DNA of 64,000 nucleotides from Lachnospiraceae bacterium (GTDB taxonomy: Bacteria; Bacillota; Clostridia; Lachnospirales; Lachnospiraceae): NCBI GenBank assembly GCA_017620255.1, contig JAFZQU010000004.1, positions 62,001 to 126,000 of the forward strand, in the 5' to 3' direction. This document shows positions 15,305 to 52,831 of the stretch, in pieces. Position 1 is the first letter of the stretch; each line of letters opens with the position of its first letter. Below the pieces are notes generated by a model. That model searched no databases, was not told the DNA's origin, and was given only the letters and a program-made list of their open reading frames with translations. A program made the translations under genes and the position numbers.

Positions 15305-15593
15305 TTCACCCTGGCGGCTCATTTTCGCTCTTTGAGATGCACTTTTCTTTTTCGCTTTTTTAGAAACTTCACCCTGACGGCTCACTTTCGCCTCCCAGGG
15401 TGCATTTCTCATTTTCCCTTTTTCGGAAATTTCACCCTGCCACCACACTTTCGCTCTTCAAGGTGCATTTCTCATTTTCCCTCTTTCAGAAATTTCACCC
15501 TGCCACCACACTTTCGCCCTTCAGGGTGCATTTCTCATTTTCCCTCTTTCAGAAATTTCACCCTGCCACCACACTTTCGCTCTCCGGGATGCA
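15305..15593. repeat. 63-bp tandem repeat, about 4.6 copies
   Basis: Copies begin at 15305, 15368, 15431, 15494 and 15557, each exactly 63 bp apart; the last is cut after about 37 bp. The third and fourth copies are nearly identical and the outer ones more diverged. Most copies hold a short inverted pair CACCCTG ... CAGGGTG able to form a hairpin. The unit is a multiple of three, so open frames run through it on both strands (21-residue repeats), but no ribosome site is seen. It fills most of the 411-bp gap between the glycosyltransferase and the ECF S-component gene. Confidence 0.9.
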
Positions 15594-38186: not shown

Positions 38187-38290
38187 TTACGTGTATTTTC
38201 TCCGGATCCCGGCAGAATACACGTAGTATGGATCACTCATTCCGCGCCGCCTACGTGTAAAAAACCGGCAACTGCCACTTTTACACGTAG
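38187..38290. repeat. Two-unit array of 40-bp CTACGTGT palindromic elements
   Basis: Unit A is 38187-38226 (its first base is T, not C) and unit B 38251-38290, both exactly 40 bp, separated by exactly 24 bp. Each has the ends CTACGTGT and ACACGTAG; unit B extends to 12-bp arms (CTACGTGTAAAA / TTTTACACGTAG). Same architecture as the five-unit array at 51095-51391. Unit B ends about 20 bp before a TATACT box at 38311-38316 that probably serves the threonine synthase gene, so it may cover the -35 region. Confidence 0.9.
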
Positions 38291-38345
38291 TCCCGGAACG
38301 AAAACGGCTTTATACTATATGTGAATAGTCCAAAGGATGATTCAT

Positions 38346-48482: not shown

Positions 48483-50849
48483 TTATTCTTTCTTGTTTGT
48501 GTCATCTCCGGCCTTGCCGCCGTTTTTAGCCGGCAGGTAGGATAACAGGATCGATGCTGCGATACATGCGGAAATGATCGCGATCATGATGATCAGGAAT
48601 CTCATATTCCCTTCACCTGTCTTAGGCACCTTATCCAGATCCGAACCGGCACCGCTCGGGTTCTTCATCGAAGAAGAAGAGGACGACGAAGAACTGCTCG
48701 ATTTATCCAACTGATATCCGTCACCGCTCTTATATACGGTTCTTGTTGCAAGAAGTTTTCCGGCAGTTGAATTGGTCGCATTAGAACCATCCTCCTGATT
48801 CTGCCCATACGGAACCACATAGAAAGAAACTTTAGGGGAATCTCCGGATAAGCCGGTTGCTTTTTTCAAAAGAGAATTCAACGTATCTTTGCTTATATTT
48901 TTCTTGTTGCTTGAACTGTTGGATTCGTTTGGAGTCGGCAGATCATAAGTATCACTCGTAACTACAGTCTTTCCGTTTTCATCTCTTATCTCGATCCTGT
49001 ATTTGGTGATCGATGTCAGATTCTCTTTTGTGTTAAATCCTGTGTATACTTCATCATTGTTATAGTAAAAGCCTAAAGTATAGTCACTGGATGTACTGCT
49101 ACTGCTATTGCTTCCACCGGGATCAGCTGCCGTGGCCCAATCAGCAATGGACTCTATTGTTACCCCAGAGTAATCTCCGGGATCGCTGGTACTTTTATCA
49201 GTAAATGTCACTGTCGGAACCAAATCTATTTTCTTATCAGCAGCTTTTGCCGTTACTTTTCCGCCCGAGACAGTAAAATCATTTTTATTACCTGATTCTA
49301 CTGTATATTCTATCTTGGATACAGATGCATTACGCGGATCACCGACAGCTCCTTTATCCCAGTTTAAATCCAGCGCATATCCCTTGCTTATCGTGATCGT
49401 GCCCCCGTTAGCACTTGGGTAATCAATGTCGATCAGATCGATTTTATCTTTGATCGTAACCGTGACGGAATCGGTCTTCGAAGGTTTCAGTGCCGCTGTT
49501 GCCGTCACCACTACTTCTCCTTCTTTTTTGGCCGTTAACTTTCCCTTCGCATCGATTGTTGCTACGCTAGTGTCACTCACAGACCAATCTATATAATTCT
49601 TGGTTGTTTTTCCATTAGTCAGATAAATGGTCGCCGAGTAAGTCGCTGTTTTTCCCACGGCTACTTCATCGAAATATCCATCATCGATGTCAATATAGTC
49701 AATATTGGCTCCGCTACTGCCATTTAAGATAGTTACTGACTTTGTTGCAGTTTTTCCGGCCATCGTTGCAGATAATACCACCGTACCCGGTTTATCTCCG
49801 GCAGTGAGTACCGCCTTTCCGTCAGCCAACCCCGTAACTGCAGATGTAACTCCTTTCACTTTCCAATCAACAGACGGAAAACCAACCGATGCAGGATCAA
49901 CCACCAACTGATAATCGGCCGATTCTCCCATCTCCATGGAAGATGGTCCGTTGATAGTAAGGGTAATTGATGATACCTTGATACTCATACCCTGTTTAAA
50001 CTGAATACCATAATAATCAATGGTCAGATCAAATGTACCATTAATTGCTTTTGCTACATCAAACTCTATCCAGTTAAGCGGAAGGTCTTCTCCACTATGT
50101 GAATTTTTATACCAGTCACAACGAACTGCAGTAACGTTTTTTAGATTAGTTACATCACAATCCCTGAACCCATCAAAACTTGCCGTATCCGGGCTTAATT
50201 CCACAACAACAACTTTGGTCTCTCCGTCGCCTAAGGGAGCAAGTGTAGTAGGGGTAACCGATGCCAGTCTTACTGGAGTAGTGCTCAACGAATATGACAC
50301 ACCAAACTCCAAGTCATCGCATTCAACTTTTTTTCTGGTACTACCATCTGAACCACTCCACTGATCAAGTGCAAATTCATCATCTTGATCGAACGCAGCA
50401 GTATAGGTTTCGCCAAGCAAACCGGCTCCGTTTTCACTTATAAGATCGACGTCTCCATGATCCCCGCTTACAGTACAATCCCACTCATAAACCGAAACAG
50501 AGATATCAGCCGTCGCCAATTCGGTCCCGGTATCATCATACGCCACAACAGTCAGCTCATTTTCACCAATACTCAAATACTGGCCGATATAACTCTCCAG
50601 GTCTTCCAGTCCATCAAAAGAAATTGACGTTCCACTTACTGTCTTTTCTACACCATCAATTCCTATGCTTTTTACACTTGCATCCCCCCACGATAGCGTA
50701 TGAGTGAATCCACTGGCAGTTTTCTTATCCTCGTATTTGATGTCAACTGCAGCCCTTACCACTTTCGACCCGGCCAAGCACGCAATTCCCAGGATTGCTA
50801 CTCCCAGCAACAGTTTTTTCACGATTCCCATGATGTTTTTCTCTCTCAT
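48483..50849 (-). CDS. Cell-wall anchored protein with bacterial Ig-like domains
   Basis: About 788 residues from ATG 50849, which has GAGGGG upstream. A signal peptide ends near VVRA. Two or three BIG2-like Ig domains occupy about 290-560 (for example VDWKVKG, YIDWSVSDTSVATID), followed by a further domain, a poly-Ser run, and the sorting signal VPKTGE with a hydrophobic helix and a charged tail. The anchor is about 45 residues from the end. The gene is visibly richer in A/T than its neighbours. It probably forms a wall-attached adhesin or structural protein, linked by the next-door sortase. Confidence 0.88.
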   Translation of the reverse strand: MREKNIMGIVKKLLLGVAILGIACLAGSKVVRAAVDIKYEDKKTASGFTHTLSWGDASVKSIGIDGVEKTVSGTSISFDGLEDLESYIGQYLSIGENELTVVAYDDTGTELATADISVSVYEWDCTVSGDHGDVDLISENGAGLLGETYTAAFDQDDEFALDQWSGSDGSTRKKVECDDLEFGVSYSLSTTPVRLASVTPTTLAPLGDGETKVVVVELSPDTASFDGFRDCDVTNLKNVTAVRCDWYKNSHSGEDLPLNWIEFDVAKAINGTFDLTIDYYGIQFKQGMSIKVSSITLTINGPSSMEMGESADYQLVVDPASVGFPSVDWKVKGVTSAVTGLADGKAVLTAGDKPGTVVLSATMAGKTATKSVTILNGSSGANIDYIDIDDGYFDEVAVGKTATYSATIYLTNGKTTKNYIDWSVSDTSVATIDAKGKLTAKKEGEVVVTATAALKPSKTDSVTVTIKDKIDLIDIDYPSANGGTITISKGYALDLNWDKGAVGDPRNASVSKIEYTVESGNKNDFTVSGGKVTAKAADKKIDLVPTVTFTDKSTSDPGDYSGVTIESIADWATAADPGGSNSSSSTSSDYTLGFYYNNDEVYTGFNTKENLTSITKYRIEIRDENGKTVVTSDTYDLPTPNESNSSSNKKNISKDTLNSLLKKATGLSGDSPKVSFYVVPYGQNQEDGSNATNSTAGKLLATRTVYKSGDGYQLDKSSSSSSSSSSSMKNPSGAGSDLDKVPKTGEGNMRFLIIMIAIISACIAASILLSYLPAKNGGKAGDDTNKKE

Positions 50850-51094
50850 TTTTCCGCCCCTCATTCGGTGATCTCTTTTTGTTTCCTTTTTCTATTCCAA
50901 CCTGATTTTTCTTGATAACATAAAACCTCGGGCTACATTGTCCCGCAAATCTACATATAGTAGTATGTGTATCTGCCCGCCACAATATCTTGCGAAAGCG
51001 CAAAAATACACACTCTTACGAAAATCATTGTAACACAACTTCAACGTTATGACAACCAGTTTATGTAACCTCTCCGAGTGATCAGATGAGATGC
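50850..51094. other. Long upstream region of the surface-protein gene
   Basis: No gene is seen. The predicted transcript start near 51020 gives a leader of about 170 nt with short hairpins (for example GCGCTTTCGC) and no recognisable riboswitch. Confidence 0.5.
51027..51055 (-). promoter_or_regulatory. Predicted promoter of the surface-protein gene
   Basis: On the minus strand, -35 TTGTCA and -10 TACAAT with a 17-bp spacer. The first unit of the 40-bp element array lies 39 bp upstream of its -35. Confidence 0.65.
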
Positions 51095-51391
51095 CTACGT
51101 GTAAGAAACCCTTGGCCGCCGATTTTACACGTAGTTTTTAAAATAAAATTGAAAGGGGACTACGTGTGAAAACCCGGTGATTGGCCGTTTTACACGTAGT
51201 TTTAAGATGAAATCGAGAAGAGACTACGTGTGAAAATCGATAGTTGACCATTTTTACACGTAGTGTCAAGCCGGAAACAAGAAAAAACTACGTGTGAAAT
51301 CACCGATATCGTCAAATCTACACGTAGCCGGTCAGAAAAATATCAAGAACACTACGTGTGAAAAGTGCAAAATGCCGGATCTTACACGTAG
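51095..51391. repeat. Five-unit array of 40-bp CTACGTGT palindromic elements
   Basis: Units are 51095-51134, 51160-51199, 51224-51263, 51288-51327 and 51352-51391, each exactly 40 bp. Spacers are 25, 24, 24 and 24 bp. All five units begin CTACGTGT and end ACACGTAG; most continue as GAAAA inward on the left and TTTT on the right, giving arms of 8-12 bp. The middle 14-16 bp and the spacers differ in every unit. Because each N24 is flanked by 8-mers, the motif alternates in orientation every 32 bp (33 once), close to three helical turns. It is not a CRISPR: repeats are not identical and no cas gene is near. I do not recognise the family. Confidence 0.95.
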
Positions 51392-51544: not shown

Positions 51545-51641
51545 TTCTCTCGTGATAAGATATAGAAAGTTTCACATCGGAGGATCATACAATTCTCTCG
51601 TGATAAGATGATAGAAAGTTTTACATCGGAGGATCATACAA
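51545..51641 (+). repeat. Tandem duplication of the gene leader and ribosome site
   Basis: Two near-identical copies, 51545-51592 (48 bp) and 51593-51641 (49 bp), each containing TTCTCTCGTGATAAGAT, AGAAAGTTT and ATCGGAGGATCATACAA. Differences are one inserted G and one C/T change. Only the second Shine-Dalgarno is placed before the lipoprotein start codon at 51644. Confidence 0.9.
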
Positions 51642-51643
51642 TC

Positions 51644-52831
51644 ATGAAAAAGAAGACCATCATCCTACTGACCATCCTTGCCACGGTGCTGCTGATCGGC
51701 TGCGGTCACGAGCACGAATGGGAAGAGGCTACCTGTGACAAGCCGAAGACCTGCAAGACCTGCGGGGAAACGGAAGGCGAGGCGCTCGGCCACGATATCA
51801 TAGAAGCGACCTGCGAAGAGCCCATGACCTGCAGACGCTGCGGCAAAAAGAAAGGACAGGCGCTCGGCCACGATTGGGAGGAAGCAACCTGCGAAGCACC
51901 GAAGACCTGTAAGAGATGCGGTAAGACAGAGGGAGAACCCCTGGAGCATGATTTTGCTCCGGCAACTCTTGACGAGCCGAAAACCTGCAGATACTGCGGC
52001 CTTACGGAAGGCGAGCCGGTCAGCCTTGAGATCAAGCGCGCTGATTTCCTGAAAGGTGCGGGCTGGAGCTGGGTCATCAACGAAAACCTTTGCGTTGCGG
52101 AATACGAAAACCCGAAGAACTACTGGACATATAACTTCTTTGATCTGGACGGACACCTGTTACACGAGCAGGAACTTGACTGCCGTGTAAGCAAGTCCAC
52201 CTATAAAGGCCATAAGATCACGGTTGCGGATGACTGCTATCTGATGGCCTGGGGAGATACCAAGAACTCCACCATCTGCATTTATGATTACGATTTCCAT
52301 CTGATCCTGCAGAAAGAAGTCAAGAGCGGCAAACTCTTCAGCGGCCAGTTCCCGGATATCGAGGACGGAAATGCGGACGGATGTAAGATGGTATTTAACG
52401 ATACGACCAGGGAGGCGATCTTCTGCTTCAATGTCAATACGGGGCGCGAGATCTCCGAGGATGAATACTGGAATGCCGTTGACGCCAACATGGAAATGAC
52501 ACCGGATTACCCGGCGGATAAATACATCTGCTATAACAGAGAGGATGCCGTAGACGGCTACTTTGTCGGGACTGCCGACGAATCCGCATGGGGATACGTC
52601 GATGAAAACGGAAACGAGATCGCGATGTATAAGGATGCGACAGCATACAGCGCCAGCGGCTACGCGCTTGTAACAAAAGACGGCCATTCCTACGATCTGA
52701 TCGATTGTGAGCAGAATGTTGTCGGAGCGGGTGTCGTGACCGGCAAATCTGCGTTCCTTGCGGGTGATGGCGGCAATCTGTTCAAGGTTTTGGCAGACGA
52801 CAGCAGCACGCTTTATGTGATCGTAAGGTGA
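51644..52831 (+). CDS. Lipoprotein with four zinc-ribbon-like CxxC repeats
   Basis: About 395 residues from ATG 51644, which has GGAGG upstream. The lipobox is LLIGC. Residues about 20-130 hold four repeats of about 28 residues built on PKTCKTCGETEGE and GHDWEEATC, each with a Cys-x-x-Cys and nearby His, as in Firmicute surface proteins thought to bind metal. The rest (about 130-395) is beta-rich with WGYVDENGNEI, a WG-like repeat fragment. Function unknown; a metal-binding surface protein is plausible. A strong terminator follows. Confidence 0.82.
   Translation: MKKKTIILLTILATVLLIGCGHEHEWEEATCDKPKTCKTCGETEGEALGHDIIEATCEEPMTCRRCGKKKGQALGHDWEEATCEAPKTCKRCGKTEGEPLEHDFAPATLDEPKTCRYCGLTEGEPVSLEIKRADFLKGAGWSWVINENLCVAEYENPKNYWTYNFFDLDGHLLHEQELDCRVSKSTYKGHKITVADDCYLMAWGDTKNSTICIYDYDFHLILQKEVKSGKLFSGQFPDIEDGNADGCKMVFNDTTREAIFCFNVNTGREISEDEYWNAVDANMEMTPDYPADKYICYNREDAVDGYFVGTADESAWGYVDENGNEIAMYKDATAYSASGYALVTKDGHSYDLIDCEQNVVGAGVVTGKSAFLAGDGGNLFKVLADDSSTLYVIVR

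Follow-up and report, generated by a model that had tools for sequence, protein, structure and literature searches.

In a 64-kb window of a Lachnospiraceae genome (G000, 2.93 Mb in 48 contigs, of which the window is C27:62001-126000), a regular array of short inverted motifs lies at 51095-51391 on the + strand and is termed array B below. Arrays with this motif, here called family 1, are dispersed through the genome, and arrays of the same design with other motifs adjoin genes for a standalone nuclease-like protein in this and related genomes. The most probable reading of the sequences is that the arrays are double-stranded binding arrays of this dedicated protein, and the two are proposed to belong to a selfish or semi-domesticated repeat system.

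Arrays in the Window and Across the Source Genome

Array B consists of five 40-bp units, and thus ten half-sites, that recur with a period of 64–65 bp. Each unit has the form CTACGTGT-N24-ACACGTAG, exact at 51095-51134, 51160-51199, 51224-51263, 51288-51327 and 51352-51391. The initial annotation had described five such units with inverted ends and differing interiors, and these are what the coordinates contain. Its 24-bp spacing is correct for all five interiors, but the spacers between units number four and measure 25, 24, 24 and 24 bp, so that three of four, rather than four of five, are 24 bp. The flip of the 8-mer about every 32 bp, which it also described, holds in array B and recurs in arrays throughout the genome. 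A second family-1 array in the window, array A (38187-38290, no strand assigned), has four half-sites at 32-bp steps, of which three are exact and the fourth (TTACGTGT) carries one mismatch; a degenerate fifth (CTATATGT) follows at 38315-38322. In total, the window holds 13 copies of the 8-mer compared to 0.77 expected in shuffles, and none of 100 shuffles reaches 13.

Across G000, the pattern CTACGTGT-N23/24-ACACGTAG occurs as 55 exact pairs, while the reversed control pattern gives none, and the shorter core TACGTGT forms 62 pairs. The pairs group into about 16 arrays scattered between genes; one has only a single unit, and two lie in the window. Steps between half-sites are 31–33 bp, except for one of 41 (L041) and one of 30 beside a two-mismatch site (L043); loci in metagenome-assembled genomes (MAGs) add steps of 23 (L034) and 54 (L033). 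The large departures of +9, -9 and +22 bp are near, but not exactly, one or two helical turns. Two findings had been named in advance as telling against a distinct, spatially constrained element, namely random genome-wide spacing of the 8-mer pairs and a match to a known repeat family. The spacing in G000 is not random, and no Rfam family scores above its gathering score in the window.

Unit interiors and spacers diverge, yet some adjacent units are identical, as tandem duplication of a single 63–64-bp period would leave them. In addition, six of the 16 arrays (array B, L036, L037a, L038, L041 and L046) have an end module in common, with template scores of 31–53 in one orientation and 2–20 in the other; since the template came from the compared arrays, these scores describe homology rather than test it. 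Array B carries the module at its high-coordinate end. Array A scores 5 and 7 in the two orientations, and L045 has an inner module in common with array B, though its end-module score is unclear. The shared module is read here as the likely product of copying of a polar array between loci. By eye, most arrays seem to point along the G-rich strand, although ten of the 16 polarities are weak.

Among 62 distinct family-1 units, pairing at interior positions 9–18 does not exceed that with shuffled partners (z -1.3 to 1.8), and at most spacer positions it is poorer. This lack of covariation suggests that the conserved element is the half-site itself, extended to about CTACGTGTRAAW. Phasing of A+T at 10 bp inside the arrays is only weak. 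It was also observed that 11 of the 16 arrays lie on contigs C25 and C27, which together span 343 kb of the 2.93 Mb, or 12% of the genome (binomial 1.4e-7, with the contigs picked after the fact).

The family-1 motif is narrowly distributed. The 24-base pattern was found in six stretches of genome_contigs, from five Lachnospiraceae MAGs and one Pseudobutyrivibrio MAG, in one of 299 sampled genomes of the family (G000 itself), and in none of the viral_contigs. The short pair with the TACGTGT core is absent from all 36 other genomes of the genus. In one of these (G416), the gap between argS and queH is 166 bp compared to 486 bp in G000, about 320 bp shorter; it holds no exact pair and is too diverged to display a junction.

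The Partner Nuclease

A protein of 267–271 residues is encoded beside same-motif arrays at L037 in G000, where the gene (C11:41481-42281) lies outside the window, and at L032 and L034 in two Lachnospiraceae MAGs. The two MAG proteins are 34–35% identical to the G000 protein, and none of the three has a Pfam match above the cut-off. The motifs follow the order RSKSE...PYxYE...YPDF...EHxG, of PD-(D/E)XK type, and the layout of about 270 residues comprises a helical start, a small β-β-β-α domain and a C-terminal PD-(D/E)XK-type domain. Residues E164, D195, E210, H211, G213 and Y220 are conserved at about 98% in 114 sequences, a few of which are fragments. E164, D195 and E210 supply the ordered acidic residues of the superfamily; the catalytic lysine is not assigned, and H211 follows E210. 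The C-terminal part matches the PADLOC profile PDC-S68 in all three array-linked proteins (best E-values 8e-27, 3.9e-26 and 2.2e-24). Among 58 diverse members, all match the C-terminus of PDC-S68 and 31 match HEAT_CxxC_PD-DEXK, while no Pfam family recurs.

A structure model of the full-length protein is poor (pLDDT 41). The N-terminal domain (71 residues), modeled from a two-row alignment, folds into three strands and a long helix with a pLDDT of 90.6, and this domain is a candidate reader of the half-site. A likeness to the arm-binding or AP2 fold was not supported.

At E≤0.001, 132 of the 397 genomes sampled from the family carry a homologue, and at E≤1e-10 so do 49 of the 295 sampled from the order; the figures are 16 of 37 for the genus and 12 of 398 for the phylum. 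Of these twelve, the seven that fall outside the family match only over the C-terminal half or the C-terminal two thirds, and in five of the seven the match sits inside a far larger frame. The distribution is patchy, with up to 8 homologues per genome among the matches listed. All six MAGs that were found by the array alone have at least one homologue, and in four of them (G299, G302, G303 and G304) a matching motif lies beside it. The array-free G193, of the same genus as G000, has no homologue.

Among mobile replicons, the nuclease query drew 116 pattern stretches in viral contigs, none of them confirmed, and 8 partial matches in plasmids (35–70% of the query), mostly in AAA ATPase or helicase genes. 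Phage records gave three unannotated contigs, one covering 82% of the query at 29% identity. A phage element was considered and rejected, with neither an exact array pattern nor a confirmed protein match in viral_contigs. Several assemblies break near the nuclease gene (among them C33 of G000, L121, L127, L140 and L164), perhaps due to the repetitive arrays.

Arrays Beside Other Homologues

The pairing of nuclease and array does not depend on the family-1 motif. A motif-free scan of homologue loci, which accepts any word that alternates with its reverse complement at constant steps, found chains of at least four exact 7-mers in 62 of 115 loci and in none of 115 shuffled ones (58 of 111 without the repeated entries). 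With 6-mers, chains lie within 1000 bp upstream of the gene in 78 of 115 entries (74 of 111 genes without surplus entries) and downstream in only 14. The 115-entry 7-mer count includes four repeated loci, as L032, L034 and L037 are the same as L063, L064 and L065, and L174 is the same as L074. The 6-mer count has four surplus entries, all of which score. L081 and L084 come from a single locus, and in each of them a split gene accounts for two entries.

Controls were almost silent. One of 122 window segments scored, and it lies in a genuine array of a second motif family described below; two of 38 upstream regions of neighboring genes scored, both with the nuclease motif of their own locus. A second set of 32 loci repeated the asymmetry, with arrays upstream in 20 and downstream in 3. 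The association is well supported. The motifs vary by locus and include TACGCGC, TTTGACT, TACCACG, GACACGC, CCGACTG, TATGGTA and others. At L063 and L071 the gene is flanked on both sides by arrays in direct orientation; the same comparison is uninformative on orientation at L157 and L143.

Motif Diversity Follows the Nuclease

Across 58 nuclease-array pairs, motif similarity tracks protein identity (Mantel r 0.23, reached in 0 of 2000 permutations). L089 and L092, whose nucleases are 84% identical, use the same motif; GACACGC is common to L094 and L095; and L142 and L145, at 66% identity, both use GATGCT with periods that differ by about one turn (62 and 73). In several further pairs, the nucleases are related and the words dissimilar. 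On a tree of 109 proteins, period classes cluster yet change often, with 21 changes compared to a shuffled mean of 30.7.

The pairing also allowed a prediction within G000. A second nuclease gene (C33:345-1133) has an upstream CACCCTG array with steps of 26 and 37–38, and its motif led to a further array in the window, at about 15307-15591 (no strand assigned; CACCCTG/CAGGGTG, steps 26 and 37, period 63). The predicted pair has two exact matches in the window, a number that none of 100 shuffles reached. From 15370 to 15565 the half-sites match exactly or miss by one base, while the outer, degenerate ones were read by eye. Another copy lies near C25:103 kb (L256). A third motif family in G000, TACCTA/TAGGTA with a period of 64, occupies L265:5043-5175 (C11 near 20 kb), and no matching nuclease was identified.

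The complete genome G282 presents the same arrangement with another motif. It contains 32 exact TACCATA-N18-TATGGTA pairs (control 0) in a 72-bp register, which form six multi-unit arrays and one lone match inside an open reading frame. The nuclease gene of G282 has one of these arrays upstream, and the six are spread as three pairs around the chromosome. Because the 72-bp period is a multiple of three, arrays L225, L229 and L230 read as open frames of 143–193 amino acids, and gene callers may annotate them as proteins.

Helical Spacing of the Periods

The mean periods of 64 arrays fall at 51–54, 62–65, 71–74, 84–86 and 94 bp, with none between, which corresponds to five to nine turns of 10.5 bp; three more values, 61, 75 and 83, appear in a looser 6-mer list. 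The periods fit a repeat of 10.50 bp best, at a phase of 0.17 bp and R of 0.86 (Rayleigh about 1.6e-21, uncorrected for kinship). With one array per nuclease cluster, p is at most 1.5e-5 at 40% identity (17 clusters) and at most 4.1e-9 at 45% (30 clusters), while at 35% all nucleases merge into one cluster. A second set of loci gave R of 0.90 and a phase of -0.07. The period test omits L032, L034, L037, L174 and L065, and some loci give two arrays; the A+T phasing, protein tree and cluster tests omit further short or repeated rows. These periods, near multiples of 10.5 bp in differing motif families, support the earlier proposal that a DNA-binding protein imposes the ends and their distances, to which the near-helical spacing had pointed.

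One of the two steps within a period is often about 30 bp and the other variable. This may reflect inverted pairs separated by about three turns and linkers of whole turns; the split is tentative, given the arbitrary register of the word.

Proposed Mechanism and Alternative Explanations

The proposed mechanism starts from features that the sequences display, namely the pairing of nuclease and array, co-variation of motif and nuclease, helical quantisation, dispersal and conserved catalytic-type residues. From these we infer that the nuclease binds the half-sites directly. Each nuclease would read its own half-site of about 8 bp, with half-sites arranged as inverted pairs that would most simply be bound by nuclease dimers, and since the pairs repeat after whole helical turns, the bound protein would be stacked on one face of the DNA. 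The array is usually upstream of the nuclease gene, and in the two genomes inspected, G000 and G282, further arrays that keep its motif and period are dispersed among unrelated genes. It is hypothesized that the nuclease cuts at or near its sites and mobilizes the arrays, and so would spread them, functionally as a RAYT (REP-associated tyrosine transposase) does with REP (repetitive extragenic palindromic) elements; local growth could then proceed by tandem duplication of one period.

Several observations weigh against this reading. No detected upstream array accompanies 37 of the 115 homologue entries, though four of these have less than 300 bp of upstream DNA and five have a downstream array. 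Two array MAGs lack a nuclease with a matching motif beside it: the single homologue of G300 lies beside AAGTCA/TTTGACT, and the six of G301 have TACGCGC (close, not identical), TACCAC, AAAGCA or no array that was found. The correlation in the Mantel test is modest, and TACGTGT accompanies two different clades, which the tree separates with weak support. Ten of the 16 family-1 arrays have no clear end-module score, and the template was drawn from the same arrays. Neither a target-site duplication nor a common flank was found at the arrays, as inspected by eye, nor was an exact empty site found, so any spreading would lack a direct trace. Finally, the N-terminal domain model has no PDB match at E≤0.001, and the bulk of the period data comes from one bacterial family.

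Among the alternatives, the one that deserves most attention, though it is unlikely, is that the protein has turned regulator, binding the array at its own promoter and controlling genes through distant arrays. The preponderance of arrays upstream of the nuclease gene would fit such a role, as would the absence of any of the 14 assessable G000 arrays from gaps between convergent genes. However, this absence is not significant against a background of 8 convergent gaps in 55, and at least two of the G282 arrays (L225 and L227) do lie between convergent genes. The genes scanned beside the arrays have no common theme, and a pure regulator would not be expected to keep its catalytic-type residues. 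A bias of arrays toward promoters was thus hinted at in G000 and contradicted by G282, and was rejected. Somewhat less likely still is a role in defense, with the nuclease as an anti-phage effector stored or checked on the arrays and released or activated upon infection. The resemblance of its nuclease domain to PDC-S68 and HEAT_CxxC_PD-DEXK and its patchy, multi-copy distribution are in keeping with this, whereas the recurring neighbors are housekeeping genes, no defense partner recurred among the families listed, and the dispersed arrays would be left unexplained.

The arrays could also serve chromosome organization or segregation, like matS or parS sites, in which case the nuclease would be a structural protein. 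Placement of the sites on one face of the DNA is in keeping with a nucleoprotein structure and the family-1 arrays cluster on two contigs, but the three pairs of arrays around the complete G282 chromosome and the missing exact pair in 36 of 36 other genomes of the genus do not resemble a core function, which makes this reading improbable. Two further explanations are given very little weight. If the arrays were REP-type elements moved by a RAYT (a Y1 tyrosine transposase), the nuclease would be incidental; the arrays are indeed palindromic, intergenic and dispersed, GTAG happens to form the end of the family-1 motif, and the array MAGs G302 and G299 have Y1_Tnp (PF01797) matches. However, PF01797 has no match in G000, G282, G236 or G304 as far as the assemblies reach, most other motif families are without GTAG, and the nuclease association is far above controls. 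Equally improbable is action through paired single strands, as hairpin RNAs or cruciforms. Array B folds better than its shuffles (z -9.2), which is trivial for inverted repeats, and in other genomes the palindrome of some units extends over nearly their full length, but the 62 unit interiors show no compensatory pairing, and the suggestion that the array is a source of hairpin RNAs is not upheld. Binding by a dedicated nuclease-like protein remains the preferred account.

Comparison with Known Systems

The closest counterparts are REP, BIME and REPIN elements with their RAYT (TnpA_REP) proteins, including REPtrons. These are dispersed extragenic palindromic repeats beside a dedicated catalytic protein, with a gene that is repeat-flanked in some cases and specificity pairs that differ between genomes (PMC3733652), and the present arrays likewise combine intergenic dispersal with repeats beside a dedicated gene. 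The RAYT enzyme is an HUH/Y1 transposase (PMC3733652), while the protein here is of PD-(D/E)XK type, and no Y1_Tnp was found in G000 or G282. REP elements are compact stem-loops that are tagged by GTAG or CGTC (PMC3733652), while the 8-bp half-sites here lie tens of bases apart, and neither such a tag in most families nor a covarying stem in family 1 was found. Tandem arrays phased at 10.5 bp further set the present system apart.

At the protein level, PDC-S68 and HEAT_CxxC_PD-DEXK have a C-terminal nuclease domain that is homologous by profile. The PDC-S68 profiles span 1202–1273 positions, compared to a standalone protein of about 270 residues with its own N-terminal domain and linked arrays.

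Other systems resemble the arrays in part. Plasmid iterons, sopC and the heptads of the omega repressor are repeated sites with helix-related spacing and cooperative binding. These belong to plasmid replication, partition or regulation loci, and are not known to be scattered through chromosomes in many motif families, each with a nuclease partner. TnsA-type endonucleases and the ends of Tn7 link a PD-(D/E)XK-type enzyme to asymmetric arrays of binding sites; here, no transposase recurred beside the nuclease among the families listed (one transposase-like frame lies near L081/L084), and the arrays are dispersed without cargo. CRISPR arrays have near-identical repeats with unrelated spacers, while only about 8 bp are conserved here and many of the interiors derive from each other as diverged copies, both within arrays and between loci. 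Integron attC arrays hold cassettes between core sites and go with a tyrosine integrase, and by argument alone they differ in that no genes lie between the units here.

No description of such a nuclease-array system was found in the open-access listings searched, with preprints outside their scope. It is an evenly balanced possibility that the system forms a new element class in the order that holds the Lachnospiraceae, in which a standalone PD-(D/E)XK-type nuclease and satellite arrays co-diversify in sequence specificity, the arrays forming one-faced nucleoprotein assemblies under selection for helical phase and being spread through chromosomes by the nuclease. It would then be a second, non-HUH solution of the REP/RAYT kind, with dozens of motifs across homologues and at least three in G000. 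Its make-up would be new, while its lifestyle may echo a known one.

Genomic Surroundings

Family-1 arrays adjoin genes for arginyl-tRNA synthetase, HydF, an oligopeptide-type ABC ATPase and others. In the window, a promoter-like match at 51027-51055 (- strand, -35 at 51055) lies 39 bp from array B and upstream of the gene for a 793-residue Ig-like surface protein (48483-50864). The promoter noted by the initial annotation is thus present as a promoter-like site, but such sites are not above chance (2 compared to 1.8 expected). An operator special to the surface-protein gene was not supported, as the same array family adjoins many unrelated genes.

On the other side of array B, a stretch of 48–49 bp (TTCTCTCGTGATAAGAT...GGAGGATCATACAAT) is tandemly duplicated at 51545-51642, directly upstream of a lipoprotein-like gene that begins at 51644, so that the likely ribosome-binding region is present twice. 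The encoded protein (51644-52831) has a lipoprotein-like start and four 26-residue repeats around paired CxxC motifs, with Pfam matches below the cut-off only (C1_1 and WG repeat).

Beside the nuclease genes, the neighbors that recur are read as housekeeping genes (guaA, comEC, aminoacyl-tRNA synthetase and ribosomal protein genes), and no conserved partner gene was seen among them. By eye, a guaA-like gene lies upstream of the nuclease in ten distinct loci from several nuclease clades (L068, L070, L081/L084, L086, L087, L101, L140, L142, L145 and L167). The end of guaA is an integration hot spot.

Significance

If this account is correct, it would add a widespread pair of repeat and enzyme to bacterial genomes, and the helical phase of DNA would be recorded in sequence across many motif families. 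The natural pairs of nuclease and half-site, two of them in one genome, make specificity directly testable and may be a source of novel sequence-specific DNA-binding proteins. The arrays would also offer a handle on a protein family that has no Pfam name and yet occurs in a third of the sampled genomes of the family.
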